From NCBI RefSeq assembly GCF_000316665.1, contig NC_019678.1, positions 2,294,001 to 2,358,000 of the forward strand: a stretch of DNA of 64,000 nucleotides. The letters are read 5' to 3'. Source of the stretch: Rivularia sp. PCC 7116 (GTDB lineage Bacteria; Cyanobacteriota; Cyanobacteriia; Cyanobacteriales; Nostocaceae). Positions 1-16,564 of this stretch are shown piece after piece. The stretch's first letter is position 1, and every line of letters begins with the position of its first letter. The position numbers and the translations under genes are program-made. Below the pieces are notes generated by a model, which made no database searches, had not been told where the DNA came from, and saw nothing but the letters and a program-made list of their open reading frames with translations.

Positions 1-1084
1 TGCTGTCTGGTGAAACAGTTTTACTGTTAAACCATTTCAGTAGTTTTTCTGCTTCTGAACTTAACTCTGGTGGAGTATCATTGTCTGCTAGTGAAATGGT
101 TAATGGTAATTGGTTGATTGGGTTAATTCCAATTGGTGGATTACCTTTTTTCTTGAATGTTTTATAGTCGCCATCCGTGGGATGTATAGCTATGGAAGCT
201 CGCACTGCTCCAGTCAATACACAGGGGTAAGCTTGCTGTTGTATCCACTGGTTGCGTTTATCGAACTGTTTCCATCTGCTTTCTGCGTATGTTGCAGCTG
301 AAGCACCTGTTAAAATTAGTACAAAATTATTGCGATTTTGTGCTGATATTCCTATATCCTCTACATTTGACGACTGATTCATAGCGATAAACATGATGTC
401 GTACTTCCTACCTTCACTCCCCAAGCGCTCTAATGTCCTTTCAACGCGGGTTGAATCATCAAAGTTTTTAAGGCAAGCTCCCAATTCATCCGTAAAGACA
501 ATCAAAAAATCATCTTCTTTAGGTTGATAATCTGCCTCACGCCGCAGGTCTAGCAAATTTTCTAATGCTTCGAGTTGTCGCTCAATCAAGGTAAAATCGC
601 TAAGTACCTTGATACCTAACTCCCTCCACAGCGGATTCCGGTTAGCATGTGGATCTAGTGCTAAAACTTGGGCGGGTTTGTTGGCAGTTAGCTTGCCAGC
701 CAGCCAACAAGCTAGTGAAGTTTTAGCGCTGCCACTGTTACCAAAAATAAGTACGCCTACGGCCTCATCTTCTAAATCATCCCAGTTATAAAAGTCCAAT
801 ATTTCTGTTTCTGTTTCGGGTGTTGGGTATTGGGTATTGGGTATTGGTCTTTCATTTTCAACCTTTAACTCTTTTTCGACTTCAACCTCAGCAACTTGTG
901 ATTGCTGCAATCGGCTTGATTCGGTGGTAGTACTAGCCATAAGCACGCCACCAGCAGCAGCACCTAAAATACTTCCAACAACTAATGGAATTTCAAATTT
1001 AAAAGGATGCTCTAAGCGAGCTGATCGAATGGGAGTAGGTGCAGATATAATCACCTCCCCAAGTAATACCAACTCTGGTATCAT
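1..1084 (-). CDS. FtsK/HerA-like P-loop ATPase of the mobile element (C-terminus beyond the left edge)
   Basis: The minus strand is open from an ATG at 1084 to the window edge (361 codons seen). Residues about 32-50 form a hydrophobic, Gly/Ala-rich segment that could be a membrane anchor. An acidic linker follows, then a nucleotide-binding domain with Walker A GNSGSAKTS at about 115-123 and Walker B LIVFTDE at about 194-200. An FIAMNQS stretch resembles the sensor strand of FtsK/HerA/TraD ATPases. The P-loop has Ala where Gly usually precedes the Lys. A GTG four codons upstream is an alternative start. Residues about 80-88 are encoded by tandem CCAATAC heptamers, a repeat within the gene. The role is inferred to be DNA transfer, packaging or partition for the element; the family match is by motif only. 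Confidence 0.72.
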   Translation of the reverse strand, partial: MIPELVLLGEVIISAPTPIRSARLEHPFKFEIPLVVGSILGAAAGGVLMASTTTESSRLQQSQVAEVEVEKELKVENERPIPNTQYPTPETETEILDFYNWDDLEDEAVGVLIFGNSGSAKTSLACWLAGKLTANKPAQVLALDPHANRNPLWRELGIKVLSDFTLIERQLEALENLLDLRREADYQPKEDDFLIVFTDELGACLKNFDDSTRVERTLERLGSEGRKYDIMFIAMNQSSNVEDIGISAQNRNNFVLILTGASAATYAESRWKQFDKRNQWIQQQAYPCVLTGAVRASIAIHPTDGDYKTFKKKGNPPIGINPINQLPLTISLADNDTPPELSSEAEKLLKWFNSKTVSPDS

Positions 1085-1146
1085 TATTTTTTCCACTCAC
1101 TGGTCATAGGTGCAACCGCTGTTGTTAGCCAAGCGGTTGCATTTAA

Positions 1147-1422
1147 TTAGTTAGCTCGTATCTGCTCAATCAAGGCATGTAACAATCCCTCCATGTCGGT
1201 AGGTTCTAGCTGGTCGGTGCATTCCCAAGCTACCCAATGCATCTCAGGTCTGATATTTCCATTCGCACGATTAGCTAAGTAAGTGCATATGTACTGAATA
1301 AAGAAAAGTTTTTCTCGAACGTTAAGTCCTTCTAGGTGCGAGCCGTATTTGTTTTGTATGTCGCCTAAAATCGACCTTTCACCCGGTGTATAGCTGGTGT
1401 AATATCCAAGTGGTTTACTCAT
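1147..1422 (-). CDS. small hypothetical protein of the mobile element
   Basis: A 91-residue soluble protein that I do not recognise. It has no signal peptide or membrane segment and reads as mixed alpha/beta (aromatic-rich start, then YICTYLANRANG and a C-terminal helix). It lies 62 bp upstream of the ATPase gene on the same strand, so the two probably share a transcript. Normal composition and operon position support a real gene. Function unknown. Confidence 0.6.
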   Translation of the reverse strand: MSKPLGYYTSYTPGERSILGDIQNKYGSHLEGLNVREKLFFIQYICTYLANRANGNIRPEMHWVAWECTDQLEPTDMEGLLHALIEQIRAN

Positions 1423-1450
1423 TGGTAGAATAGAACTCTAGGTGTACTTA

Positions 1451-1482
1451 ATAGGACTGCGGTTTGCTGGCAGTCCTATTTT
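1451..1482 (+). terminator. hairpin followed by a short T-run (first of three)
   Basis: A perfect 10-bp stem (ATAGGACTGC with GCAGTCCTAT) and a 9-nt loop are followed by TTTT on the plus strand. No plus-strand protein gene lies upstream. Two similar hairpins follow at about 116-122 bp spacing, so this is probably the first member of a repeated arrangement. Confidence 0.5.
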
Positions 1483-1497
1483 CAACTAACTAGCAAA

Positions 1498-1597
1498 ACC
1501 CCACGACGCTACGATTTACGGGTTATAACTGGATAGTCAATTTATTACTGATGATTTCAAGTTTTAGGGAAGTAGCGCGTACTTCCCATTTTTTTTT
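1498..1597 (+). ncRNA. candidate small RNA unit 1 (conserved motif plus intrinsic terminator)
   Basis: The unit starts with motif ACGACGCTACGATTTA (copy at 1503), flanked by CCC and GGG, and ends in a terminator at 1567-1597: an 8-bp stem GGGAAGTA/TACTTCCC, a 5-nt loop and a run of nine T. The arrangement repeats 112 bp downstream. There is no open frame here. The alternative is a pair of replication or partition iterons. Transcription is not shown, only inferred from terminator polarity. Confidence 0.4.
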
Positions 1598-1608
1598 ACA
1601 ACTTCTAC

Positions 1609-1719
1609 AACCCTACGACGCTACGATTTATGGGCTATATTGTGGAAGTTATATTCACATTTACTGATTGCTAATTAACTTACTAAGTGGGGAGTTGCGA
1701 GTACTCCCCATCTTTTTTT
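1609..1719 (+). ncRNA. candidate small RNA unit 2 (tandem copy)
   Basis: The same motif recurs at 1615 (ACGACGCTACGATTTA, then TGGGCTATA). About 75 bp later comes a terminator at 1689-1719: a 7-bp stem GGGGAGT/ACTCCCC followed by seven T. The motif is conserved while the terminator stem sequence differs from unit 1 and pairing is kept. That pattern suggests a duplicated structured transcript. Confidence 0.4.
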
Positions 1720-1764
1720 AGGTACTGACCACATAATGACTACTCGGTCTGTTATGGGTGTTCG

Positions 1765-2010
1765 CTAAGTTGAAGTCGAAGAAATTTTTGCCCCCTCAAA
1801 TGCCTCTATTAAGTCATCAAGAGAACAGTTAAAAACCTCAAGCAACTTTTTTGTTTGGGACGGAGTTAAGCGAGGTGAGACGCTACCTTGCTCCCACCTC
1901 CCGACAGTTGCGGTCTGAACGTCTATGGCTTGCGCTACTTGCCTTTGAGACAATCCGGCTCTTTTCCTTAACGACATTATGCTCAGGGGTTCTTTCTTTG
2001 CTCTTTCCAT
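1765..2010 (-). CDS. XRE/Cro-CI family helix-turn-helix regulator
   Basis: An 81-residue single-domain DNA-binding protein. An HTH_3 fold covers about residues 10-70: LRKRAGLSQRQVAQAI and the recognition helix TATVGRWEQG, then a Leu-rich closing helix. It is probably the lysogeny-type repressor of the integrated element. A 10-bp perfect inverted repeat lies just upstream of its start and is a natural autoregulatory operator. Family assignment is firm; the target genes are inferred. Confidence 0.88.
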   Translation of the reverse strand: MERAKKEPLSIMSLRKRAGLSQRQVAQAIDVQTATVGRWEQGSVSPRLTPSQTKKLLEVFNCSLDDLIEAFEGAKISSTST

Positions 2011-2017
2011 ATTATAC

Positions 2018-2066
2018 TATAGACACCTACGATAGACATATACTTCTAGCCAACACGTCTATCGTA
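2018..2066. promoter_or_regulatory. likely operator of the XRE repressor
   Basis: TACGATAGAC at 2028-2037 is repeated as its exact reverse complement GTCTATCGTA at 2057-2066. A further related half-site (CTATAGAC) lies at 2018-2025. The sites start 8-18 bp upstream of the repressor ATG, inside the expected promoter, which fits autorepression. Confidence 0.6.
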
Positions 2067-2210
2067 CTTATCTACCAATAAACTGCAATTAGCAGATACG
2101 TGTAACATATCTGCTAATCATTACTATCTCATTATGAAGTTGAGATCAAAATATGGGAACTCGGGAGGTATGCTGCGAGCCAAGACCCAGTACTGACAAG
2201 CAATTTCGCG

Positions 2211-2241
2211 AAAAAAAAAGGAGCTTGATAAAAGCCCCTTA
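2211..2241 (-). terminator. intrinsic terminator of the KGK gene
   Basis: Read on the minus strand, a stem AAGGGGCTT/AAGCTCCTT with one mismatch is followed by nine T. It lies 20 bp after the stop codon of the KGK gene. Confidence 0.6.
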
Positions 2242-2261
2242 GATGAGTATGAATAACTGGC

Positions 2262-2570
2262 TTATAAATCTAGTTGTTCGCGTAAGTCGTTCAAAGATGA
2301 TGCTGATGGAGATGCTGAAGTTTTATCTGGAGTGAATTCAAGCTCAAAGCTTACTTCAATCCTAACCTTACCTTTTAGCCAACCACCGCCTTTGACTGAG
2401 AGACATTGGCACGTAATGCCCTCCCTTGCCCACTCGCGATAATCATCGTCAAAGCGTTCCATGATTTCGTTTTTGATTTCGTCAACTCTTGATGTTGGTT
2501 TGTATGTAAGGTTTTCATCCTTATCCATCGAAACCACATCGTCATCATTCAAAATAATTCGTTCCGTCAT
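2262..2570 (-). CDS. KGK domain protein
   Basis: About 102 residues. It shows the pattern of the cyanobacterial KGK family: DDDVVSM near the start, a middle helix, CQCLSVKGGGWLKGKVRIEV, then an amphipathic strand. The Lys-Gly-Lys motif is visible in WLKGKV. Molecular function of the family is not known; members often occur on plasmids and other mobile DNA. An in-frame GTG six bases upstream (2576) is an alternative start. It is divergent from the plus-strand replication operon. Confidence 0.75.
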   Translation of the reverse strand: MTERIILNDDDVVSMDKDENLTYKPTSRVDEIKNEIMERFDDDYREWAREGITCQCLSVKGGGWLKGKVRIEVSFELEFTPDKTSASPSASSLNDLREQLDL

Positions 2571-2760
2571 AATCACTTACTGAATGCCTACTACTAGCAT
2601 TCCCAGACAGAAGAAAAACCAAAACCCGTAAATCAACCTACCTATATATGTTGAATGACTAGAAACCCGAGAAAACACCGATTCCAAAAATACGAAAACC
2701 CTCCGATTACAGTAACCGCAGGGCTTTCATACCGTGGAGGTAGTTCCATCTACCAAAACC

Positions 2761-3105
2761 ATGAATTTAATTATAGTCCTGTGGCTGTTAGCCATGTCAT
2801 TCGCAGCGTGGGTAGTCTTCCTCAACTACCAAGCACACAACCAAACACCGTGGTGGTTGCTTTGGAGCAGATACAACCGTGGAATAAAACATCCTCGGGG
2901 ATTCAGGAATGTAAAACGCCCAAAGCCAAAAAGGTTAAACATCCCCACACACCTACCGGCTTGGCAACAACTACTTGCATTGGTGCGCTATGACGAAAAA
3001 ACAGCAGTGCGATTGTACCATTACGCCAAAAACTGCAATCCAGGAAAGTCAGAAAAGTGGGTTTTGGAAAAAGCTCTTTGGGACTTGGAGCGTGATAGGT
3101 GGTAG
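2761..3105 (+). CDS. small membrane-anchored hypothetical protein
   Basis: About 114 residues. An N-terminal transmembrane helix (LIIVLWLLAMSFAAWVVF) precedes a basic stretch and a helical C-terminal domain (LVRYDEKTAVRLYHYAK, then KWVLEKALWDLERDR). That C-terminal pattern recurs in small cyanobacterial proteins of unknown function, as far as I recall. A GTG at 2734 could add nine residues. It is first in a plus-strand run of overlapping genes. A longer overlapping frame at 2655-2993 is rejected because this one carries the membrane segment and the recognisable domain. Confidence 0.6.
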   Translation: MNLIIVLWLLAMSFAAWVVFLNYQAHNQTPWWLLWSRYNRGIKHPRGFRNVKRPKPKRLNIPTHLPAWQQLLALVRYDEKTAVRLYHYAKNCNPGKSEKWVLEKALWDLERDRW

Positions 3106-3367
3106 CTTACAGCGATTATTTTTACACCTGCGGCTATGGATGTGGGCGGCTACTAAAACCAAAAACTTCCATTGCTTTGAAATTGGATTTACCAAAATAA
3201 TTCATATTACTGCTAATTACTATCCCAGCAGTTTTGAGTTTTTATTAATAACTATCTCGTTTAGTAGACCAATGTTTTACCTGTTTGAGCCAGGTCATAT
3301 TATTGGTGATTTTTGTCGCGAGCATGGTTTTAATTACGAAGTTTTTGAAGATGATATCCCTTTCTAA
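3092..3367 (+). CDS. hypothetical protein of the element
   Basis: About 91 residues from a GTG overlapping the end of the previous gene; ATG 3140 would give 75 residues. Aromatic-rich, with an alternating hydrophobic middle and an acidic C-terminus (NYEVFEDDIPF). Not recognised. The stop overlaps the ATG of the next gene (TAATG), which suggests translational coupling and supports this frame. Confidence 0.45.
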   Translation: MIGGSLQRLFLHLRLWMWAATKTKNFHCFEIGFTKIIHITANYYPSSFEFLLITISFSRPMFYLFEPGHIIGDFCREHGFNYEVFEDDIPF

Positions 3368-3591
3368 TGACCAAAGAAAGTAACGAACAAAGAATACTCA
3401 GACTAGAAGGAACTATCGACGCGCTTAAGTTTCACTTAGAAAACCTTTCTAAACAACTTCTATTGCTAGAAGCTCAAATTGCTGATTCAAATCCTTCAAA
3501 CGAGGACATTCGGCACTTAATAAAAGATACAACAAAGACTCTCCACACGATACAAAACATCTACCCATGCAGAAGAAAATGTAACCAATGA
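3367..3591 (+). CDS. small coiled-coil protein
   Basis: 74 residues. Positions about 8-40 have heptad-like Leu/Ile spacing (ILRLEGTIDALKFHLENL) typical of a short coiled coil. The start overlaps the previous stop and its own stop overlaps the next ATG (ATGA), so it sits in a tightly coupled operon. Function unknown. Confidence 0.6.
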   Translation: MTKESNEQRILRLEGTIDALKFHLENLSKQLLLLEAQIADSNPSNEDIRHLIKDTTKTLHTIQNIYPCRRKCNQ

Positions 3592-3857
3592 ATAATTCAA
3601 GCTATAACCTATTCGATGATTGTGACGATGAAATTCTACATAAAACCTCTCAAGCTACGGCTAACCTTGTGATTAAACTCATCGATTACATTCAACATGA
3701 ATTCAAAACCGATAGAGCCAAAGCAACATTTACAGCAGGAGTACTAATAGCATCATTGCCCGAGATGATTGAAGAAAATGAAGGCGGTAGAGAAGGCGTA
3801 CAGGAGATTATTAATGATTTTGAGAATATTTACAGCCAACAATTCAACCAAAATTGA
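3588..3857 (+). CDS. small acidic hypothetical protein
   Basis: 89 residues, acidic and mostly helical (TANLVIKLIDYIQHEF, then an Ala-rich helix and EENEGGREGVQEIINDFENIY). The ATGA overlap with the preceding gene indicates coupled translation. It lies 59 bp before the primase-helicase gene. Not recognised; perhaps an accessory replication factor by position only. Confidence 0.6.
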   Translation: MNNSSYNLFDDCDDEILHKTSQATANLVIKLIDYIQHEFKTDRAKATFTAGVLIASLPEMIEENEGGREGVQEIINDFENIYSQQFNQN

Positions 3858-3916
3858 TAAAAAAAAGAGCGCCAAAGGGGCACTCAAATGTAATTTAAAT
3901 AACGTTTATTATTAAC

Positions 3917-6643
3917 ATGATTATAACACAAAGTAAGTCCAAAAAGGTAGAATCTAGACCTGATTTTATTGCAGAAAAACATTGGCAAGAGTGGGTAGAT
4001 TCCGGTGTAAAACCATCAATAATTGCAGCAAATATTTATACAGAACTTGACGCAAGAGAGCTTGATAAAGCTTTAAACAGGAATAACAGAAGGAAGTGGA
4101 AACACTCGGATAACTTAGTTCCAGCTTGGCTAGTACGTGGAGTATACCCGGAAACTGGAGAGCTTGATTTAGGAGGAATACAAGCTAAGCCTGACAACCC
4201 AGAAATAAAACATGGCAAGATTCAGAAATATCTTGGAGCTTGCGAATATGGAACTTCTCCCCTCTTCCTTAGAGTAGATGATTTCGATTACTGGTTAAAA
4301 GTAATACAGGATTTACAAATACCAATAATCATTACAGAAGGTGCTAAAAAATCTGCGTGTTTATTAAGTAATGGTTATGCAGCTATTAGCATCCCCGGTG
4401 TGAGTACCTGTAGAAAGAAAGGTAGATTACACAAATTAATCAAAAAGTTCTGTGGTTTTGGTCGGTTGTTCTACCTTTGTTTCGACAACGATGTTGTTAC
4501 TAAGCGTCCGGTTCAGCTAGCACTGGAAGGACTAGCACGAGATTTAACCGCGACTGGTAGCAAAGTTATGGTTATTTCCCTCCCAGAAGGTGACGCTAAG
4601 GGAGTTGACGATTATATAGTCGCTAATTCGGTAGAAGCATTTGATCGACTGGTGACTAACGCTCAAACTATTGAGGAGTGGAAAGAAGACAATGATTTGT
4701 CATGGGCCGCCAAACAGGAACAGATTAAAAATAGGAAGAAATCAAAATTAGCTCGGGCCGTAGAAACAATTCAAACAGCGTGGGGTGATTTCCTTAGATG
4801 GAATGATTTGACTCAAGCACCAGAACTAGGGGACGAGCAATTAGAAATTGATGACCTAAGAGTTAAAATTGCTTTGGAACTGGACATGGACATTACCAAA
4901 GATGATTCAGTTACAGCAATTCGGACTTTAGCCAAAGGGCGGCGTTACCACCCGATAAAAGAATATTTACAGGATGTAGCGGAAAGTTACAAAGACGTAG
5001 AGCTAAGCATCATTGATAATCTTTCAACCGAGTTATTTGGTAACGACTCAGAAATTTGCAACATATATATGAAGCGCTTTCTGATAGGTTCGGTAGCACG
5101 GATGATGCGACCGGGTACGAAGATGGACAACGCGATTATTCTCCACGGTGCTGAAGGGATTAAAAAATCAACGTTTTGGAATGTTTTGTTTGGTGAAGAT
5201 TGGTTCTCAGATTCCATTGACGATAGCAATGGTAAAGACGAAAAAATGCTGATTCACGAGTACTGGTGTTTGGAATGGAGTGAATTCGCAACAGTTTACA
5301 AGCACAAAGATATTGAAGCGCTCAAGAAGTTTCTAGCTCAAAAAATTGATTCTTTTCGGAAACCATTTGAGCGAGCAATATCTAAGCACAAACGAGGATG
5401 CGTATTCGTAGGAACAACTAACAATCCAGAAATTCTTCAAGACCCGGCCGGAAGAAATCGCCGTTTTTGGATTGTCAACGTTAACCAAGAAATTGATATC
5501 GCCAAACTAGAAAAGATTCGCGATCAACTTTGGGCCGCTGCTTATTACTGTTGGAAACGAGGGGATATACACTATATCCCCGAAAAATCTCGGGAAGCTC
5601 ACTTACAAGATAAAGAGAATGAGCAGTTTAAAGCATCTCACCCGTGGCAGGAAATTATTGAATCATCTTTGATGGGTAAAAACCAAACTCACCTCGGAGA
5701 ATTGTACGATTGCTTGGAAATTGAAAAGGGGAGAAGGGAAGCAAGGCACCAACGTCAAATAGTTGAATGCTTAAAAATTCTTGGTTGGGAATCCACAGAC
5801 GAAAGAGGTTTCGGCCCTAATGGAAGCAGACCGCGATTATGGAAACGAAAAACTCAGAAAAAAAATAGTAATTTTGGTGGTCAGGTGGATCACAATGTTC
5901 AAAGTAACGGTACAACAAGTAATACAGCCTGCCCACCTACTGATCCACCCACCGATCCACTAAAAAATAAAACAAATACATCAAACCCTCAAAGCAACGC
6001 ATATCAAGGGGTTCTAGATATCCTACCCACCGATCCACCCACTGATCCACCCCAAAACCAAAATAATTATCAAAAAGAAGTTCGGACTGATCCACTACCT
6101 GCTACTGGATCGGTGGTGGATCGGGGGGTGGATCAGCCAAGAAATAGCGCTGGTAATGGATTCAGCCCGACTGATCCACCTAACCACCAAAAACGTAAAA
6201 ATAAAAAAGAAAAAATTCAACCACACCCAAGCTTTGAGAAAAATAAAAATAGCTCAATAAAGATAATCGGCATGACCGGAACGTGGAATGTTAGATATCG
6301 AATTACCAGACAGCACATTGACATTAAATATTCTTCCGATGATAGAACCGGCAGCCAAAAAGAATTTATCCAGTTACGAGAGCGGCTGACTTACAAACAA
6401 TTCCGGGAACAGGTAGAAGCGGCTATTTGGAAGCTAGAAAGCCAAATAATTGGCGATCGCAAGTTTCGGGTACAGGTGTGGAGCCGCGATGTGACGGAAC
6501 TAGAGCCGAAATGGGTTCAGGGGTGTACGTTAGTTTCGACTCCGGAACCACCCGGAAGTACGATGTTTATCTTTGCTTCACCCGAAGGTCGGGTTATCCC
6601 CAAAGCGGGAATTGATGAGTTTGAGTTGATTGAGGAAATTTAG
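3917..6643 (+). CDS. primase-helicase: DUF3854 (Toprim-like) plus VapE-type ATPase
   Basis: 908 residues. About 60-260 match DUF3854, a Toprim-like fold of mobile-element primases: IIITEGAKKSACLLS holds the catalytic Glu, and FYLCFDND followed by KGVDDYI holds the metal-binding acids. About 370-590 match the VapE/virulence-associated E superfamily-3-like ATPase: P-loop GAEGIKKST, an EWSEF acidic motif and RNRRFWIV. A low-complexity Pro/Asp linker (T-D-P-P repeats, about 655-760) leads to a basic C-terminal region. The likely role is to initiate and unwind replication of the element. The linker DNA carries an ordered array of repeated sites that may be the origin (listed separately). Confidence 0.88.
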   Translation: MIITQSKSKKVESRPDFIAEKHWQEWVDSGVKPSIIAANIYTELDARELDKALNRNNRRKWKHSDNLVPAWLVRGVYPETGELDLGGIQAKPDNPEIKHGKIQKYLGACEYGTSPLFLRVDDFDYWLKVIQDLQIPIIITEGAKKSACLLSNGYAAISIPGVSTCRKKGRLHKLIKKFCGFGRLFYLCFDNDVVTKRPVQLALEGLARDLTATGSKVMVISLPEGDAKGVDDYIVANSVEAFDRLVTNAQTIEEWKEDNDLSWAAKQEQIKNRKKSKLARAVETIQTAWGDFLRWNDLTQAPELGDEQLEIDDLRVKIALELDMDITKDDSVTAIRTLAKGRRYHPIKEYLQDVAESYKDVELSIIDNLSTELFGNDSEICNIYMKRFLIGSVARMMRPGTKMDNAIILHGAEGIKKSTFWNVLFGEDWFSDSIDDSNGKDEKMLIHEYWCLEWSEFATVYKHKDIEALKKFLAQKIDSFRKPFERAISKHKRGCVFVGTTNNPEILQDPAGRNRRFWIVNVNQEIDIAKLEKIRDQLWAAAYYCWKRGDIHYIPEKSREAHLQDKENEQFKASHPWQEIIESSLMGKNQTHLGELYDCLEIEKGRREARHQRQIVECLKILGWESTDERGFGPNGSRPRLWKRKTQKKNSNFGGQVDHNVQSNGTTSNTACPPTDPPTDPLKNKTNTSNPQSNAYQGVLDILPTDPPTDPPQNQNNYQKEVRTDPLPATGSVVDRGVDQPRNSAGNGFSPTDPPNHQKRKNKKEKIQPHPSFEKNKNSSIKIIGMTGTWNVRYRITRQHIDIKYSSDDRTGSQKEFIQLRERLTYKQFREQVEAAIWKLESQIIGDRKFRVQVWSRDVTELEPKWVQGCTLVSTPEPPGSTMFIFASPEGRVIPKAGIDEFELIEEI
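5884..6180. repeat. ten-site YGATCCAC[CT] array inside the primase gene (iteron/origin candidate)
   Basis: Sites on the plus strand start at 5941, 5953, 6031, 6043, 6088 and 6172. Sites on the minus strand lie at 5884, 6105 (variant), 6115 and 6127. Three pairs are exactly 12 bp apart (5941/5953, 6031/6043, 6115/6127), about one helical turn. Both orientations occur while the reading frame stays open. I saw no similar density elsewhere in the element. Confidence 0.6.
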
Positions 6644-6656
6644 TTTTCATTTAAAA

Positions 6657-6935
6657 ATGTCTAAATATTTAGAAGAATTCATGCGTGAAAGACATGAAAA
6701 ATTGCGTGATGAAATTGACTTAATTAAAGGTCAACTAGAAAAAGTCGCGAGCGAGTATGAAGCGGCTCGTTCGGAAGTAAAAGCCGTTTATGACAGAAAT
6801 GAGGAACTCTCGTTAAAACCTGCGATAAAAATATTGCATGAAGCATCGCTGCTATTACATTTAGAAATTGCAATGATGAAACCTTTTTGTCCGGCGGATG
6901 ACGCGGCCCCCGATCCAAACGATGAATACTATTAG
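6657..6935 (+). CDS. small coiled-coil hypothetical protein
   Basis: About 92 residues from ATG 6657; a TTG at 6630 would add nine residues and overlap the primase stop. A long charged helix (residues 1-50, MRERHEKLRDEIDLIKGQ onward) predicts a coiled coil, followed by a hydrophobic helix and an acidic tail. It sits between primase and integrase genes in the same orientation. Not recognised. Confidence 0.6.
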   Translation: MSKYLEEFMRERHEKLRDEIDLIKGQLEKVASEYEAARSEVKAVYDRNEELSLKPAIKILHEASLLLHLEIAMMKPFCPADDAAPDPNDEYY

Positions 6936-6947
6936 GTTTTAGATTGC

Positions 6948-8087
6948 ATGGAGCAGTTAAAAGAAATTAACCAACGGCTCAAAGATGCCTGCATGGGGGT
7001 GCGAGTAGAGCAACAGGGAAATACCTTGTTTTTACGTGCAACTCTACCCCCAAAACCCAATTCAAACAAAAGCAAACCTTGCCAACAACGTATAGCCTTG
7101 GGCATCCGAGCCAATAAGAAAGGGATTAAGCGAGCAGAAGGGGAAGCTTATAAACTCGCTGGTTTACTTTCTTGCAAGGAGTTCAAATGGGAAGTTTACC
7201 TTCAATCAGATCCAGATTCTCCCCCGGTGCGTTATGTAGCTGATTTAGTCAAAGCTTATGAGGAATTCTATTTTCAAACTAGGCAACGCAATCACAAGTC
7301 AGAAACTACTTGGACAGGCGATTACTTCAAAATATTTAAACGTTTACCAACAGATGAATTACTTACAAAAGAAGTCATTATGGAGGTGATAACAGAAATA
7401 GCGCCTGACACAAAACAAAGAGTAAGAGCTTGCATGGCTTTACAAGCACTCGCTAACTTTGCAGAACTCAATATTGATTTAAAACCTTTTCGAGGAACTT
7501 ATTCCCCCAAAAGAACAAAACCGCGAGATTTACCTGATGATTTAGCTATCGCCAAAGTTTTTCACGGAATCAAAAACGAATCTTGGCAATGGATTTTTGG
7601 GATGCTGGCGACTTATGGTTTGCGTAATCATGAGGTTTTTCGTGTAGATTTTGATTCCATATTAAAAGGTAACTATATTGTCAGTGTTGGGGAAAATTCA
7701 AAAACAGGTCCTAGAAAAGTTTGGCCATGTTATCCAGAATGGTTTTCTGAATTTCGTTTGAATGAAGTAAGGCTACCAAACATAAGCCTTGACCGTTCTA
7801 ACACCAAAGTAGGAGAGTCTGTAACACAATGGTTTACACATAACATTCCTTTCGGTGCTTACAACTTACGCCATTGTTGGGCGGTCAGAACGCTAGGCTT
7901 TGGTCTTGACGTTTCTCTTGCAGCACAACAAATGGGGCATTCTACAAAAGTGCATACTGAAATCTATCATCACTGGATATCAGAACAGCACCACCAGCGA
8001 GCGTTTGAATTGATGATGATGCGAGAAAATCGCCCGCAGCCGCCAATAATATTAGGCCATAAACCAACTAAAAATTTTCTTGCCTAA
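6948..8087 (+). CDS. tyrosine-type site-specific integrase
   Basis: 379 residues. The N-terminal half has an Arm/SAM-like region (about 70-150). The catalytic part shows Arg in TYGLRNHEVFR (about 225), Lys in SKTGPRKVW, box II as YNLRHCWAVR (Tyr replaces the usual first His, a pattern I associate with cyanobacterial element integrases), MGHS, and the nucleophile Tyr in EIYHHW. It would catalyse integration and excision, and its position at the end of the element puts the attachment site close by. The C-terminal codons sit in an 11-bp tandem repeat (TCTTGCCTAAA twice, about 8077-8098), so the stop may lie near the crossover. Confidence 0.9.
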   Translation: MEQLKEINQRLKDACMGVRVEQQGNTLFLRATLPPKPNSNKSKPCQQRIALGIRANKKGIKRAEGEAYKLAGLLSCKEFKWEVYLQSDPDSPPVRYVADLVKAYEEFYFQTRQRNHKSETTWTGDYFKIFKRLPTDELLTKEVIMEVITEIAPDTKQRVRACMALQALANFAELNIDLKPFRGTYSPKRTKPRDLPDDLAIAKVFHGIKNESWQWIFGMLATYGLRNHEVFRVDFDSILKGNYIVSVGENSKTGPRKVWPCYPEWFSEFRLNEVRLPNISLDRSNTKVGESVTQWFTHNIPFGAYNLRHCWAVRTLGFGLDVSLAAQQMGHSTKVHTEIYHHWISEQHHQRAFELMMMRENRPQPPIILGHKPTKNFLA

Positions 8088-8187
8088 ATCTTGCCTAAAG
8101 AAAAATATCACTTCTCGGAAGTTATTACATCTGAAGCGCCATTATCCCGCTATGTAAACACCTGAATAAGTTGTTGAAACATATAAA

Positions 8188-8210
8188 AACGGGGAAAGCA
8201 ATTCCCCGTT
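8188..8210 (-). terminator. terminator of the kinase gene
   Basis: A 9-bp perfect stem AACGGGGAA/TTCCCCGTT with a 5-nt loop, followed on the minus strand by TTTTTATAT. It lies 28 bp after the kinase stop. It may also stop readthrough from the integrase on the other strand. Confidence 0.65.
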
Positions 8211-8237
8211 AGAGCGCTTAACTTATCACCTTAATAT

Positions 8238-9764
8238 TTACGGGTGTATAGTACCGTCTGGCATAGTTGCTCCCGTTAATTTCACATTATTTAAATCGAT
8301 TCCGTGGAGGTTTGTATATCGCAAATTTGCACCGCTTAAATCGGCACCGTTAAGTTTTGTACGATGAAGCCTTGCACCTCGTAAATCGGCACCGCGCAAA
8401 TCTACGTTAGTTAAATTTGCATAGGTAAGATTAGCGTTTGATAAATTTGCATTCTTCAATACTGCACTTCTAAGTCTCGCTCCTCTAAGATTCGCATCCT
8501 GGAGATTTGTATCTTTAAGTATAGCTCTTTGTAAGCGAGCATATTTAAGATTTGTGCCGCTTAAGTTGCTACTTTGTAAATTAGAATTCTCCAAGTTAAT
8601 ATGCCTTAAATTTGCATTTTTGAGGCTGACATTTTCAATTTGAGAATTACTTAAATTTACTTTCTGAAGCTCGCAGTCTTCGCACTCCTTTTTTTTCTGC
8701 AATCTATCAAGTAAACGATGAGTTTGTTCGCGTTCTTGCAGAAGCTCCTGTAACCGATTTATACGACTAATTCGGGTTTCTAGCTGTCTTTGTTTGTAAC
8801 GAAGACGGTAGATTTGTCTTTGCTGTCGTTCAATTTTATGCTGTTGCGAAATTGTAGATCTTTGAATTCCTTGAGTTCCGGCAATACCTACCCAAAGAAG
8901 TATTAAAAGTGCAAAACTCTGAGCAAAAACATTGCTTTCCTTTGATTTTTGCTGTACAACCACGGGAATTGACCGCAATGCTTCAAGTGCTTCTGCTGCA
9001 CTTGCAAATCTATGTTTGAGATTTGGCTCAACCATTTTACCCAACCACCCGGCAAATTTCGGATGAATATTCGATGGAAAACTTTTGAAATCAAAACGAT
9101 ATTCATCATCAATTAGTTTGCCTACATTAACCGAACGGGTACCGCTAAGCAAACAAATTAATGTCACACCCAAACTATATAAATCGGATGCTTCAGTTAA
9201 ATCGCGACCGAAATATTCTTCGGGAGGAATAAAACCAGGAGTTCCGGAAGCAACGCTACTAAGTGCTACTTCATTATTACTAACTTTTGCAAAGCCAAAA
9301 TCGACTAAGTAAGCGTTAAGATTTTTATCAACTAAAATATTTTCTGGTTTAATATCGCGGTGTATAATTTGCGGGTCTCGTTGTTGCAAATAAACTAATA
9401 TTTCTAAAATAGATATAGCAATTTGCTTAACTTGTTCCGGGGTAAACTTGTTCTCCGAAGCCAATGATGGAGCATCTTTATATTCCTGTACTAAGCAAAA
9501 ACCTTGCGGTGTTTCAAAAGAAGTTAAATAGCTGGGAATACGGGGATGATTTAACTGTTGCAGTACTTCTATTTCCCGTTCGTAAGCCTTAAAACCAGAC
9601 CAGTCGGCACCTACATCTGCAAAGCGAAACTCTTTGATTACTACTTTTTCGTCGGTATTTTCCACTTCCGCGAGGTGCGTTATACGTCCTCCGAAGCGAT
9701 TTTTCCCTAATTCCTTATTAACTTGATAGCCGAGATGCGAAAAATCTGTTTTTTGGATTGCCAT
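8238..9764 (-). CDS. Ser/Thr protein kinase with C-terminal pentapeptide repeats
   Basis: 508 residues from ATG 9764, chosen because GGAG lies eight bases upstream; an in-frame start at 9782 is less likely. Kinase domain about 10-265: a Gly-rich loop, the catalytic Lys in VIKEF, HRDIKPEN catalytic loop and DFG. A transmembrane helix at about 280-300 (FALLILLWVGIAG) is followed by a charged coiled coil and about 25 pentapeptide repeats (A(N/D)Lxx). The kinase is cytoplasmic and membrane-tethered, with a right-handed beta-helix at the end. This is a common cyanobacterial Hanks-kinase layout. The next gene upstream is an EAD1-GUN4 protein, which suggests one signalling pair. Substrate unknown. 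Confidence 0.92.
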   Translation of the reverse strand: MAIQKTDFSHLGYQVNKELGKNRFGGRITHLAEVENTDEKVVIKEFRFADVGADWSGFKAYEREIEVLQQLNHPRIPSYLTSFETPQGFCLVQEYKDAPSLASENKFTPEQVKQIAISILEILVYLQQRDPQIIHRDIKPENILVDKNLNAYLVDFGFAKVSNNEVALSSVASGTPGFIPPEEYFGRDLTEASDLYSLGVTLICLLSGTRSVNVGKLIDDEYRFDFKSFPSNIHPKFAGWLGKMVEPNLKHRFASAAEALEALRSIPVVVQQKSKESNVFAQSFALLILLWVGIAGTQGIQRSTISQQHKIERQQRQIYRLRYKQRQLETRISRINRLQELLQEREQTHRLLDRLQKKKECEDCELQKVNLSNSQIENVSLKNANLRHINLENSNLQSSNLSGTNLKYARLQRAILKDTNLQDANLRGARLRSAVLKNANLSNANLTYANLTNVDLRGADLRGARLHRTKLNGADLSGANLRYTNLHGIDLNNVKLTGATMPDGTIHP

Positions 9765-10005
9765 CGTTATCTCCACGCGCAATGATTGCAGCTTGATTCG
9801 TCATAATACGCAGGTATTACAAACTATTTTCACACAAAAAAAATCAACTGTTCAGATTTTGTACGATATCTTATCTTTATCTTCAAACTATAGCTTGCGT
9901 AAAGGGAGAAAAATTGGGGTACTTTTTTTTCGGTGCAATTCACTTCATGACTGGGGTTTTTTGCCAGTAATGTCCCACTGTAGTTTATCTACTCTTCTGT
10001 AAGCC

Positions 10006-10854
10006 TTAGATGTTAAACTTTACAAGTCTTGATGCGAGAGAAGAGAGTCCCAATACCTCCTCCAATCCTCCCTTTTTCTCTTCCAAGAAAGATATAAAAT
10101 CTAATCTTTCTGCTTCAGCTATAGTAAAAATTGCCGCAGCGCATAGAGACGGAAGGTGTCCATCTGGGGCACTTGGAGAGAAAGTTAGTTCTAAATAATT
10201 AAGCCATTCTCTGTTGAAGAACATTCCTTTACGCCAACCGACGCGATCGCCGAACTTTCCGTAATCTCTTTTAACACTTTCCCAAATGCGCTTTTGTAGG
10301 CTAAAACCAAAGCGACCATTACTATACTTTACCCAAAGTTGGTCAATGGTGCGTAAGTCAGTGCAAAGAATTTTTTGAAAGTCATCGCAATACAAATAGC
10401 TTTGTGATTCTACACCCGCAGCTTTCAGCATAACTCTTAGAGTTTCCTCATCCGCTTCCTTCCATTTCGCAGCTTTGAGCAAATCCCGCAGTCGGGTATA
10501 ATCAACTGCTTTTTCAGAACGAAGGTCATCTTCTTTTATTTGTTGTGGAGTTATTAATACTGGTTCTTCTACAAGTTGCGATCGCGAAACCCATTGTTGA
10601 CAAAATGCTCTTAACTGGGGATTTCCTGGATTATATTCAGATGCAGCATTAATCAGTTCTTGTAATTTTCCCTGTGTTTCAGCCCATGTAACTACTCTAA
10701 ATACAACTTCAGAATGATTCGCACCTGTAGCGACTTCACATAAAGTTTTATTCAAACCAAAGCTGAGCATCTGCTCAAGGGCTATGGGCGCAGGGAAGGC
10801 GTTTAAAAGAGCCTCATAGAAATCACGGCGCTGTTTACCATTCTCAAACCGCAT
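10006..10854 (-). CDS. EAD1-GUN4 domain protein
   Basis: About 282 residues. N-terminal 1-80 matches effector-associated domain 1: GKQRRDFYEALLNAFP, an LxxMLSFGL helix and NPGNPQLRAFCQQW. C-terminal about 118-250 matches the GUN4 porphyrin-binding fold: DYTRLRDLLKAAKWKEAD, CTDLRTIDQLWVKYS, GRFGFSLQKRIW, then FSPSAPDGHLPS. True GUN4 stimulates Mg-chelatase; EAD fusions are more likely sensors recruited to signalling or conflict systems. ATG 10854 fits the usual EAD1 start; a TTG at 10884 is possible. It is probably co-transcribed with the kinase despite the 240-bp gap. Confidence 0.85.
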   Translation of the reverse strand: MRFENGKQRRDFYEALLNAFPAPIALEQMLSFGLNKTLCEVATGANHSEVVFRVVTWAETQGKLQELINAASEYNPGNPQLRAFCQQWVSRSQLVEEPVLITPQQIKEDDLRSEKAVDYTRLRDLLKAAKWKEADEETLRVMLKAAGVESQSYLYCDDFQKILCTDLRTIDQLWVKYSNGRFGFSLQKRIWESVKRDYGKFGDRVGWRKGMFFNREWLNYLELTFSPSAPDGHLPSLCAAAIFTIAEAERLDFISFLEEKKGGLEEVLGLSSLASRLVKFNI

Positions 10855-10949
10855 TTTGCTTAAATCAGTATATTTGGCTAACAATATACTATTATTACCA
10901 ACATAAACCGAAGAATTCCTTATAAAATTGTCATTTAACTGATATCTTG

Positions 10950-11087
10950 CACCCCAAGCTCAGCTGCGCGTACAACCGCCTTGGAATAAATTCCCAGGCT
11001 CAAAAACAAAGTCGTCTCAAGACGACTGGATAAGGCTTTTAGTGCGTTTTAGCGTACTTTGTATATAAGCCTTGAAATTTATTTCTC
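10950..11087. repeat. dispersed structured repeat, copy 1
   Basis: Starts with CCAAGCTCAGCTGCGCG and ends with TATAAGCCTTGAAATT. It holds stems CCTTGG..CCAGG and AGTCGTC/GACGACT. A second copy at 16191-16462 has the same order of elements but a different, still paired, stem. This element accounts for most of the otherwise gene-free 10855-11207 interval. Confidence 0.75.
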
Positions 11088-11207
11088 TGCGTTCACGCGG
11101 CTAGCAGAGCGTACCGTAGGTATTGCGTGCGGGCTAGAAAGCCTCCGGCTTACAAGGCAGGTATTTGTAGATAACAACAATGTTGTAAGATACAAACACC
11201 AAACAAA

Positions 11208-12191
11208 TCACCGCGAAAAATTCGGCTCCCCAACTTCGGGAAAACTATCAAAATTCCGCCTTACCCAATCCATACCAACTTCATTGTTAAATTTAATCTT
11301 TTGAGGGCTATTCGCATAAATTTTGCCTAAAATATCAGCATCTTGCTCAATAACTACTCCCACAAGCTTTAGTAAATTTCGTTTAATTAAATGAGCAATT
11401 GGTGAGTATGCTTTGACAAACATGAGAATAAAAACGCGAGATTGATTTGAATATTCTGGAATATAAAAATGACATTCTTTAATACTAAAAATCGGACTTT
11501 CACCGTGCATAACTGCCATACTTGGAAAGAAATTTTCTAAATGCGCTTCTAATACTTTTGGCATTGCTAAAAGCGCGGGATTTTTTAAAATGTCTTTTAT
11601 TGTTGGTTTCTTCCGAGGTTGTGCAATGTAAGCATGGGAGTGAAATCCATCATCAATAAACTGCTTTAATTGCACCTCTTCGATTTCAAATAGCTCGCGA
11701 TGGGTACCATTTTGATGGTTGTAATCGTGCATATTCAATAGAAGCGAAAGAAAATCAGTTTGAATACTGCAATTACCCGTAAACCCGATAAATTCATATT
11801 CTGCTGCAATTTCATTCATAATATTCGGAATCGGAATTTTGGCTTCAAAACCTCCGTAAGTCCAAATAAAATCCCCTTGAATTATTAATTCCAATGGTTG
11901 TAACAGCGACTTAGTTGACTTATCATTACCGGGTAATACCGTACATCCTTCGCTATCAAATTCCAAAGCATGAAACGGACAAACCACCGTACTACTTCCG
12001 TCTGATTTAGTCACGCACCAACCTTCCGATAGCATTGCACCCATATGAGGACAAGCATTCGGCAAACAACTGATTTTACCCTTATCATCTTGCCAAAGTA
12101 CGTAGTCGTTACCGTAGAGAGAAACTTTCATTGGCTGATTCGGCTTCAGCATCGAACAATGTGCTAACAGCCACGGTGCGCCTTTTAACAT
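11208..12191 (-). CDS. Rieske [2Fe-2S] domain protein (oxygenase-like)
   Basis: 327 residues. The N-terminal Rieske domain has both cluster motifs, CPHMGA (about 47-52) and CPFHALEFD (about 71-79). The rest resembles the catalytic part of Rieske non-heme iron oxygenases, with HDYNHQNGTHRE as a possible iron-ligand region, but I cannot confirm a full 2-His-1-carboxylate site. Soluble, no signal. It is convergent with nothing and lies downstream of an AraC regulator on the same strand. Substrate unknown; the neighbouring SDR and ABM genes suggest modification of a small aromatic or polyketide-like compound (inference). Confidence 0.8.
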   Translation of the reverse strand: MLKGAPWLLAHCSMLKPNQPMKVSLYGNDYVLWQDDKGKISCLPNACPHMGAMLSEGWCVTKSDGSSTVVCPFHALEFDSEGCTVLPGNDKSTKSLLQPLELIIQGDFIWTYGGFEAKIPIPNIMNEIAAEYEFIGFTGNCSIQTDFLSLLLNMHDYNHQNGTHRELFEIEEVQLKQFIDDGFHSHAYIAQPRKKPTIKDILKNPALLAMPKVLEAHLENFFPSMAVMHGESPIFSIKECHFYIPEYSNQSRVFILMFVKAYSPIAHLIKRNLLKLVGVVIEQDADILGKIYANSPQKIKFNNEVGMDWVRRNFDSFPEVGEPNFSR

Positions 12192-12310
12192 AGTTATATA
12201 AGTTTTTAAGTAATAGATTGATGAGATTAGTTTAGTCTCGGTTAAACAAAACTGTCTCGCGCAATCTTCCGAAAAATAGCTAAATCTTCCGTTTTATCTT
12301 ATTCTTTGCA

Positions 12311-12352
12311 CATCCCTCTCCCTGCGGAGCGGAGAGGGAAAGACGGTGAGGT
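12311..12352. repeat. palindromic CCCTCTCC repeat
   Basis: CCCTCTCC/GGAGAGGG arms around TGCGGAGC, ending GGTGAGG. The same family recurs at 20437-20496, 20677-20736 and 47918-48025. Confidence 0.55.
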
Positions 12353-12371
12353 TTCTTTATGCTGCTCGCTA

Positions 12372-13265
12372 TTAACTGATTCTAAATTTCCTCGGAGTTA
12401 CACCAACATATTTACGAAAAACTTTTGCAAAATGACTTTGACTTTTAAATCCGACTAAATTAGATATTTGTATAATTGAAAATTCTTTATAAGACAAAAG
12501 ATATTTTGCTTTTTCAACTCGACATTTAGTTACGTATTGATGGGGTGCAATTCCCATTGATTGTTTAAATAAGGTGGCAAAATAATGAGGACTCATCTGT
12601 ACTATCTGACTCATTTGAGCAAGAGACAAATCTTTATCTAAGTTATCGTTAATGTAATCCCTAATTCGTTTCAATTTATAATTTTGCAGCCCATGGCTAT
12701 ATTTTTTGAGATTAACCTTTCGCGTTGAATAATGTTTTAATAAATGCACCGCTAACATATTCGCTGCTGATTCTACGTAGAGACGACTATCACTAATACT
12801 AGTTTCTAATTCTCGTTTAATTGCTAACCCAATTTGTTTAACTAAAGGGTCATATGCTTTTACTTGTTGTATAATTTCAATATTATCTATATTAATTGAT
12901 TCATCAACCGCACTAATTAAAAAATCTGGTTCAAAACTTAAAACAATAAATTGATTGTCTTGCTCAAATTGTGCTGCTGGAGAAGCTTGATAAGCCGGGA
13001 AAATTCCAATATCACTTTCCCCATAATATTGACGCTGCCAATTTTGATTTACCTTAAAACTTGCGTAGAAGCTTTGAGGAGAAATACCGATAATATGCTG
13101 AGAAGATAAAATTTCAGGAACTTGATAATTTAATTGTCGATGGTAATTAAAATAAAAACCATTACATAGAGAAACCGGGGTAGAAAGAAGCAACGGTAGA
13201 GGTAAAATTTGCTCTATTTGATGGGGTTGAGAGGCATTTATTTTTATTGCTTGCTCTGTTGTCAT
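12372..13265 (-). CDS. AraC family transcriptional regulator
   Basis: 297 residues. The C-terminal 100 residues contain two HTHs: SLAQMSQIVQMSPHYFATLF and SIIQISNLVGFKSQSHFAKV, ending FRKYVGVTPRKFR, typical of AraC/XylS proteins. The N-terminal 190 residues are a divergent ligand-binding half. Its start is only 46 bp from the divergent AraC gene at 13312, so both share one control region. It probably regulates the flanking Rieske and SDR genes (inference). Confidence 0.9.
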   Translation of the reverse strand: MTTEQAIKINASQPHQIEQILPLPLLLSTPVSLCNGFYFNYHRQLNYQVPEILSSQHIIGISPQSFYASFKVNQNWQRQYYGESDIGIFPAYQASPAAQFEQDNQFIVLSFEPDFLISAVDESINIDNIEIIQQVKAYDPLVKQIGLAIKRELETSISDSRLYVESAANMLAVHLLKHYSTRKVNLKKYSHGLQNYKLKRIRDYINDNLDKDLSLAQMSQIVQMSPHYFATLFKQSMGIAPHQYVTKCRVEKAKYLLSYKEFSIIQISNLVGFKSQSHFAKVFRKYVGVTPRKFRIS

Positions 13266-13311
13266 TACAATTTATATTATTGGTATACAAATTTATATCT
13301 ATTAAAAAAAT

Positions 13312-14169
13312 ATGATAAATACAAATAAAGTTTATCAAGAGAGAAGAGTTTGGCAACCTAAACATATTGATAATATCGAAATTGCCTATCGTGATTCTTC
13401 TGCTTTTAACCTTCCTGCTCATTTTCATGAAGAACTCGAAATTACACTAATGCAGGGCAGCAATTGGAATTTTGATTATCGGGGTGAAAAATTTACGGTT
13501 CCTCCTTTCAGTTTTACTTTAACTCAACCTGGAGAAACACACAAAGCTAGTTTTGAAAGCGATTTTAATTGTAGATTTTATGGATTGAGAGTTAAGGCTG
13601 ATTTATTAAAACAATTAGCAGAAGAAATTAAGGGTAATTATCAATACTTACCGTTCTTTTCGACACCAGTAGCTTCCGATAAAGAATTAAGTCAACTTAT
13701 TTTCACATTTCACGTCTTAGTAAAAAATTCTAAAGGATCAATCTTAAAACAGCAATCTCTGTTATTACAAATTGTAGAAAAACTTATTTTAAGGTATACG
13801 CAAGATAGTTCTAATTTAAAATATATAGGGAAGGAAAATCAATCGATTCAGCGAGTAAAAGACTATTTAAATGATAACTATGCTAAAAATATATCGCTGG
13901 AAGAATTAGCACGCATCGCCAATTTTAGTCCCTTTTATCTAAATCGAGCATTTCGCAAACAAGTTGGAATTCCCCCTCACAAATATCAAACACAAATTAG
14001 AATTGCCCGTGCAAAAAATTTGTTAAATAATTTATCTATTTCTCAAGTGGCTGTTAAAACAGGTTTCTCTAGTCAAAGTCATTTTGGCTGGCATTTTAAG
14101 AAAGTTATGGGAGTTACACCAAAAAAGTATGTGAAAGAGAGCAATATCTTGATAGACGCGAACATCTAA
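13312..14169 (+). CDS. AraC family transcriptional regulator with cupin-like N-terminus
   Basis: 285 residues. The N-terminal AraC-binding cupin is visible in LPAHFHEELEITLM and QPGETHKASF. The C-terminal double HTH is SLEELARIANFSPFYLNRAF and SISQVAVKTGFSSQSHFGWH, ending VMGVTPKKY. It lies upstream of, and 44 bp from, the SDR-SDR-ABM gene run and is its likely activator. It is a different subgroup from the divergent neighbour, so not a simple duplication. Confidence 0.9.
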   Translation: MINTNKVYQERRVWQPKHIDNIEIAYRDSSAFNLPAHFHEELEITLMQGSNWNFDYRGEKFTVPPFSFTLTQPGETHKASFESDFNCRFYGLRVKADLLKQLAEEIKGNYQYLPFFSTPVASDKELSQLIFTFHVLVKNSKGSILKQQSLLLQIVEKLILRYTQDSSNLKYIGKENQSIQRVKDYLNDNYAKNISLEELARIANFSPFYLNRAFRKQVGIPPHKYQTQIRIARAKNLLNNLSISQVAVKTGFSSQSHFGWHFKKVMGVTPKKYVKESNILIDANI

Positions 14170-16190: not shown

Positions 16191-16462
16191 CACCAAGCTC
16201 AGCTGCGCGTAAGTAAGTAGGCAGAAAAAAACATACCTATATAACAGAATGTAAATTAGCCTTAAACCCTTACTCCGACTGCCGACTGCCAACTGCCTTG
16301 CCCTAATTACAATTTTCAACACCAACCTACTTAAAACCGCCTTGGAATAAATTCCCAGGCTCATATATAAAGTCTGATAAATCAGACTATGTAAGGTTTT
16401 AAGGCGATTTTAGTGCGTTTCAACGTACTTTGTATATAAGCCTTGAAATTGATTTCAAGGTT
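16191..16462. repeat. dispersed structured repeat, copy 2, carrying a nested insertion
   Basis: Same element as at 10950-11087: CCAAGCTCAGCTGCGCG, CCGCCTTGGAATAAATTCCC, then TTTAGTGCGTTT and a perfect hairpin CCTTGAAAT/ATTTCAAGG. The internal stem reads AGTCTGA/TCAGACT, where copy 1 has AGTCGTC/GACGACT. The rest of the 16050-16564 gap holds two GTGGGAGCA..TGC fragments at 16060-16075 and 16491-16509 and no gene. Confidence 0.75.
16212..16334. mobile_element. small MITE-like insertion within the repeat
   Basis: About 123 bp absent from copy 1 at the same point. It is bounded by inverted termini TAAGTAGG (16214-16221) and CCTACTTA (16326-16333) and contains short ACTGCC-type tandem repeats. 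No coding capacity. Confidence 0.5.
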
Positions 16463-16564
16463 CTTGTAAGAATTATAAAAATATCTGTAGTGGGAGCAAG
16501 ATGCTCCCTATCAATATAATAAGCACTTTTGGCTACGGTTTTTATAATCCTTCGATTCTCTCAA

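Follow-up and report, generated by a model that had tools for sequence, protein, structure and literature searches.

A both-strand iteron array inside a cyanobacterial VapE-type rep gene as a probable replication origin

A rep gene in the genome of Rivularia sp. PCC 7116 carries a dense cluster of short repeats within its reading frame, which raises the question of whether the cluster is an origin of replication that is also translated, a protein-binding site of another kind, or a repetitive stretch of protein. We analyzed the gene within a window of 64,000 nucleotides (contig NC_019678.1, positions 2,294,001 to 2,358,000; the positions below are those of the window), together with its relatives in genomes, plasmids and viral contigs. 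Our reading, to which we give a probability of roughly 85%, is that the array serves an integrated mobile element as its replication origin and that the Rep of this element reads it.

The rep gene and its repeat array

The rep gene (3917..6643, plus strand) encodes a protein of 908 amino acids, in which a DUF3854 domain (residues 125-240, 4289..4636; PF12965, E = 1.5e-33), a VapE helicase domain (residues 364-571, 5006..5629; PF05272, E = 5.6e-65), a winged-helix domain (residues ~578-644, 5648..5848), the linker bearing the array and a C-terminal domain (residues 766-908, 6212..6643) follow one another, all on the plus strand. DUF3854 has been described as TOPRIM-related (PMC10079941). The winged helix, the proposed reader of the iterons, comes from AlphaFold modeling of residues 271-660 (mean pLDDT 83.7), in which it was predicted as three helices and a beta hairpin, with pLDDT of 68-90 over 10-residue blocks. 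The six top PDB matches of this model, which covers the helicase and the winged helix, were chains of 7pds (query TM 0.78-0.79), an entry titled 'The structure of PriRep1 with dsDNA', and Rep matched 7pds_A by sequence as well (E = 3.6e-28). NrS-1, poxvirus D5/E5, the SaPI5 primase-helicase and papillomavirus E1 were among the lower-ranked matches. PriRep1 is a helicase of a staphylococcal island. PADLOC returned nothing for Rep. The genome of Rivularia sp. PCC 7116 possesses one full-length copy of rep and one partial match to DUF3854 only.

An integrase-like gene lies downstream of rep on the same strand (6948..8087), with a Phage_integrase match under the Pfam cut-off. The direct-repeat search for the ends of the element gave only a 20-mer at 8187, which resembles a terminator stem, and no tRNA was found in positions 1-14000 of the window. 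Two adjacent ORFs of AraC-type regulators in opposite orientation were noticed by eye at 12372-14169.

The array (5884..6180) begins 8 bp past the end of the winged-helix profile, inside the rep ORF. The sequence-only reading had reported ten copies of YGATCCACY in both orientations within 297 bp; the array, its two strands and its span were recovered, albeit nine copies are exact and the tenth carries one mismatch. Four of the ten copies are on the minus strand, namely iteron 1 (GGTGGATCA, 5884..5892), iteron 7 (6104..6112, the copy with the mismatch, read from the sequence as ACTGGATCG on the plus strand), iteron 8 (GGTGGATCG, 6115..6123) and iteron 9 (GGTGGATCA, 6127..6135). The plus strand bears iterons 2 (TGATCCACC, 5941..5949), 3 (CGATCCACT, 5953..5961), 4 (CGATCCACC, 6031..6039), 5 (TGATCCACC, 6043..6051), 6 (TGATCCACT, 6088..6096) and 10 (TGATCCACC, 6172..6180). 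Three pairs were indeed found 12 bp apart (5941/5953, 6031/6043 and 6115/6127), and the translation confirmed that most plus-strand copies read T-D-P-P; at the minus-strand copies the gene encodes V-D-R/H/Q. Two gaps between the iterons are candidate melting segments (5963..6030, 63% AT; 6053..6087, 71% AT), but their AT excess is only slight because the gene upstream is already 60% AT.

Outside the array, a single further exact copy of YGATCCACY was found in the whole 64 kb. The core GATCCAC occurs 14 times in the window against 3.9 expected, with 9 of the 14 inside the 297-bp array, and none of 100 dinucleotide shuffles of the window reached that count. Inside the rep gene, seven copies of one 8-mer fall within 400 bp, where protein-preserving shuffles of synonymous codons (n = 100) gave at most five. 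When the own genome of 8.73 Mb was searched for the inverted pair GGTGGATC-N35-60-GATCCACC, all three forward matches were located within the array and the reversed-pattern control gave none.

Arrays behind the winged helix in relatives

A match was found in 35 of 150 near genomes (E 1e-30) and in 53 of 388 genomes sampled across the class (E 1e-40), both counts including the own genome. The single-protein scan of genome contigs gave one locus (L032), which is the same match as L003. We read 90 loci (L001, L003-L031 and L033-L092) and eight plasmid records that we selected among the 263 that matched. Before counting, we dropped L002 (DUF3854 only, own genome), L032 (on the same contig as L003) and L095 (the same plasmid as L018, judged by length). 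The remaining 97 genes were reduced to 88 by setting aside five without a profile match (L026, L027, L065, L074 and L086) and four with a match ending short (L039, L068, L075 and L092). We counted as an array any 8-mer that occurred five or more times within 400 bp, located from -60 to +1000 bp of the end of the winged helix (wHTH).

Arrays were found behind the winged-helix codons in 62 of the 88 relatives, at a median start of +8.5 bp and on both strands in 59 of the 62, and the word often changes from one relative to another. The upstream control stretch of equal length yielded an array in none of the 88, and five copies were reached by dinucleotide shuffles (20 each) in a single relative. 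The relatives are not independent of one another; 48 of the 62 arrays remained when VapE identity was held below 80%. With respect to the rep ORF, 48 of the 62 arrays are embedded, 12 lie behind the rep stop and two straddle it.

The other 26 relatives have fewer than five copies within 1 kb, seven of them having four. Five of these 26 carry an array further downstream, at 1.1-2 kb: L061, L070, L071 and L084 have five or six copies ~1.6-2 kb past the winged helix, possibly with a gene inserted between, and in L100 (a Phormidium yuhuli plasmid) the VapE ORF ends at the winged helix with six copies of GTGGATCA, the core word of the window, 1.1 kb beyond. A longer upstream stretch contained a repeat in three of the 26 (L013, L025 and L100). 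L013 has five copies of AGGTGTCA upstream of rep, overlapping in sequence with GTGTCAAC, the four-copy word behind its winged helix, and L025 has ten copies of TAGGGATA within ~380 bp ahead of its VapE gene, which bears no near downstream array. Among the genes set aside, three DUF3854 genes in which the VapE profile found no match (L065, L074 and L086) repeat a word 9-13 times within the ORF; the plasmid relatives of L065 are annotated as DUF5906. In L026 and L027, the ORF reached the limit of the retrieved sequence.

The arrays share a geometry. In the 62 arrays, neighbors on the same strand are mostly 8-12 bp apart and opposed clusters ~45 bp apart. Neighbors separated by 6-16 bp are on opposite strands in 14 of 319 cases, whereas those separated by 34-60 bp are so in 104 of 136 (500 orientation shuffles gave no more than 84). 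Restricting the count to the 48 non-redundant arrays gave the same picture (77 of 105; shuffles at most 64). At least two opposed pairs at 34-60 bp were found in 37 of the 62 arrays, against no more than 27 in the shuffles. In the relatives, the AT content was 62% in 26 gaps of 85-150 bp, 56% in 103 shorter opposed gaps and 53% in the genes. Copies on the same strand are spaced mostly by 9 or 12 bp where the array is coding and by 9-11 bp where it lies behind the stop, for which reason we regard the 12-bp spacing as partly an effect of the reading frame. The check proposed earlier was whether the octamer and its 12-bp spacing persist in homologues while the linker protein changes; L004 and L008 keep the octamer, but the spacing is not fixed, as 9, 11 and 12 bp are all common. 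The alignment-derived iteron consensus (~cTG[TA][TC]CCACC) serves for display only, since the orientation is uncertain in several arrays.

The similarity of the iterons tracked that of the wHTH with the whole of VapE held constant (partial 0.18, p = 0.0005; 48 arrays), and also that of a trimmed wHTH (partial 0.13, p = 0.0125; 46 arrays). No correlation with the iterons was found for the VapE slice directly before the winged helix. As two VapE slices lying 100-155 and 155-210 residues ahead of the wHTH end correlated too (partial 0.08-0.09, p ~0.04), the specificity for the iterons is not cleanly assigned to the wHTH. The covariation between winged helix and iterons is significant but weak and not exclusive.

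Comparison with known origins and competing explanations

Among the top-ranked results of word searches in open papers, none concerned an origin of DUF3854-VapE genes or an experiment on this family. Classical iteron plasmids of the RepA/Pi type combine a RepA-type initiator with direct iterons on the same strand, and this class was ruled out by the VapE helicase and the iterons on both strands. The layout of the window appears nearer to the rep-ori of phage-inducible islands (PICI/SaPI), overrun by an ORF. PICI origins have been described as lying directly 3' of the initiator gene, with two sets of iterons flanking AT-rich DNA, and the rep-ori of EcCICFT073 was demonstrated to replicate (PMC6092414); the Rep of SaPIs, apparently acting as two hexamers, was reported to recognize the iterons via its C-terminal domain (PMC7581432). 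As far as these accounts go, the window shares with SaPI and EcCICFT073 a helicase initiator and iterons that follow right behind its C-terminal domain, which would bind DNA in the window as well (the predicted winged helix); the division of the iterons into two sets around AT-rich DNA may also be shared. The helicase is of the VapE/D5-like AAA+ type, judged by PF05272, the match to 7pds_A and the fold (TM 0.79). On the other hand, SaPIbov1 and SaPI5 were described with an AEP-type primase (PMC7581432) in place of DUF3854, and the ORF of the window passes through the iterons to end in an extra domain. The iterons are immediately 3' of rep in L058 and L066, but inside the ORF in the window. This comparison covers the replication module alone.

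The O protein of phage lambda is not known to be a helicase. Its gene provides a precedent for an in-gene origin, with iterons and an AT-rich tract in mid-gene, in which extra iterons were reported to become extra residues (PMC7466680). The iterons of the window type differ from those of lambda in being short, located on both strands and variable in word among relatives, and the AT tract of the window is weak. Taking the 3' origins of PICIs together with the in-gene origin of lambda, we regard the array of the window as a PICI-like origin overrun by the rep ORF.

Two further systems resemble the window in part. CyRepA1 and CyRepA2 (pSYSA and pCC5.2) were described as plasmid replication proteins of cyanobacteria with an N-terminal DUF3854 (PMC10079941); they have a DEXDc helicase, and the rep of the window, having VapE instead, falls outside CyRepA1. 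We considered CyRepA1 as a further carrier of arrays, but the genes of pSYSA and Moorena had none at the sensitivity used. A five-copy repeat was noticed well outside the gene in the Moorena locus. The orf904 of pRN1 was described with a C-terminal winged helix and with an indispensable origin region directly behind the gene, but that origin is a stem-loop of ~100 nt without iterons (PMC4234260).

Very probably, the in-gene array is where replication of the element starts, a site found just 3' of the gene in some relatives and inside the ORF here. In the mechanism that we propose, the winged helix behind the VapE helicase would bind 9-bp iterons spaced by about one helical turn. Two helicase rings pointing in opposed directions would be loaded at iteron clusters of inverted orientation, which face one another at a distance of ~45 bp. 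The AT-richer gaps between the iteron modules would then melt, and the DUF3854 part would do the priming. The element itself would be mobile and active at present. In PICIs, SaPIs and some relatives, the corresponding origin is located directly 3' of the rep stop codon. As the ORF continues through the origin to a further domain in the window, the linker would be protein code and origin at once. We see an even chance that such origins are set by geometry rather than by sequence, with the 9-bp word drifting along with the winged helix while the ~45-bp separation of opposed clusters and the helical-turn spacing are kept. In the same scenario, the origin moved between non-coding and coding DNA in cyanobacteria as the rep stop was gained or lost, and the C-terminal domain was a selected addition that made Rep carry the code of the origin as a linker.

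Iterons of plasmids can also act in copy control. The array may accordingly be a site bound by Rep for autoregulation or copy-number handcuffing, or a partition site, with initiation elsewhere. Binding alone would account for the link between iterons and wHTH, three relatives without a near array have an upstream repeat, and the CyRepA2 replicon was reported to require a region upstream of rep, where small RNAs were described for CyRepA1 (PMC10079941, PMC10899382). However, the location at the 3' end of rep, the two inverted sets and the AT-richer gaps match functional PICI origins, and no array was present in the ~1 kb upstream of the 88 genes. The upstream control of CyRepA1 is no direct analogue, because the pSYSA and Moorena genes encode another type of helicase and have no array in the gene. 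We thus consider a pure control or partition site improbable, and the origin remains the preferred reading.

A chance cluster, or a relic repeat without function in the Rivularia sp. PCC 7116 genome, is less probable still. The element could be a dead remnant, and six of the seven other genomes of the same genus that we searched have no match at E 1e-30. Chance is excluded by the shuffles of window and gene and by the arrays of the relatives, and a relic is at odds with the intact ORF and the divergence from L032, estimated by the NG86 method. The N-terminal-DUF3854 part, the winged helix and the C-terminal domain (0.13 over residues 766-906) gave dN/dS of 0.06-0.13 at a dS of ~2, near saturation; dS was saturated for the VapE segment, which gave no value. 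For the linker, the protein of which is 38% identical, dN/dS was 0.61 and dS 0.89. The low dS suggests that silent sites of the linker are held, and the low dN/dS beyond the array suggests that the C-terminal domain is translated and kept; by these estimates, residues 766-908 are under purifying selection. At least two kinds of domain were seen at the C-terminal ends of relatives, some of them SH3-like by eye.

Finally, T-D-P-P and V-D might be a protein motif that expanded, with the DNA repeat following from codon use. The window alone is compatible with this, because its plus-strand copies share one frame and its minus-strand copies another. The relatives are not: L004 and L008 (45 and 47% protein identity) keep the octamer of the window in other reading frames, so that TDPP and VDR of the window become SGSSGSSGS in L004 and VDHGGSGGS in L008 (SGS, VDH/GGS or DP from the same octamer), and each of the 48 embedded arrays spans two to five of the six classes of strand and frame. 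Synonymous shuffles fell short of the observed copies in the window and in most relatives with arrays. Among the 12 arrays past the rep stop, five share their DNA with another ORF of at least 80 aa: short plus-strand ORFs (123 and 116 aa) cover those of L051 and L090, minus-strand ORFs extend over parts of those of L063 and L087, and in L059 the overlap is at one edge. The remaining seven have no such ORF over them, by which we take protein-level expansion, the least credible of the alternatives, as refuted. As one and the same array can mix several reading frames, we conclude that selection acts on the repeat as DNA. The earlier reading, an in-gene origin recognized by the product of the gene itself and a repeat that did not arise by expansion of the protein, is thus supported by the frames of L004 and L008, the recurrence in 62 of 88 relatives and the 12 arrays past the rep stop.

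Plasmids, viral contigs and wider use

In the eight plasmid records, the array was the densest 8-mer in six, including L099, where it tied with another word, and another repeat was denser in two. L094 (a Microcystis plasmid) has ten copies of CCGTCGCG in ~315 bp at 16241-16559, outside the rep gene. Strand-composition skew had been proposed for mapping the origin, but the cumulative extremes of GC skew did not mark the array in these eight plasmids, perhaps except the 5.8-kb L093; with an amplitude of only 1.9-2.8 root-n units, GC skew was not used. DnaA boxes numbered two in 26 kb versus three in 122 kb, too few to judge.

The alignment-based scan of viral contigs gave 169 matches, while the single-protein scan gave none. 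Among the best 80 of the 169, at least five copies were found at the equivalent place in 19, of which 17 have them on both strands and 13 past the stop; 61 had fewer than five, and the upstream control gave none in 80. In five of nine further plasmid records that we picked (L101, L103, L105, L107 and L108), 8-13 copies start 1-108 bp behind the VapE stop, and Komagataeibacter, Roseomonas and Apilactobacillus are among the hosts of such plasmids. The other four records have fewer than five copies (four in L102; three in L104, L106 and L109). Going by the plasmids surveyed, these data suggest that the PICI-type origin layout is wider.

If the reading proposed here is correct, the arrays would pinpoint the predicted origins of dozens of plasmids, integrated elements and phages of cyanobacteria, and the array-bearing reps may supply replicons for cyanobacterial genetics. 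The pairs of winged helix and iteron word would form a natural series for work on the recognition code, and a similar origin layout both outside and inside the reading frame would make a clean case of overlapping coding. One observation is odd: the Nostoc sp. TCL26-01 plasmids L096 and L097 have their word in common (GGTGGAAC, ten copies each) yet coexist, which speaks against a simple rule of iteron incompatibility.
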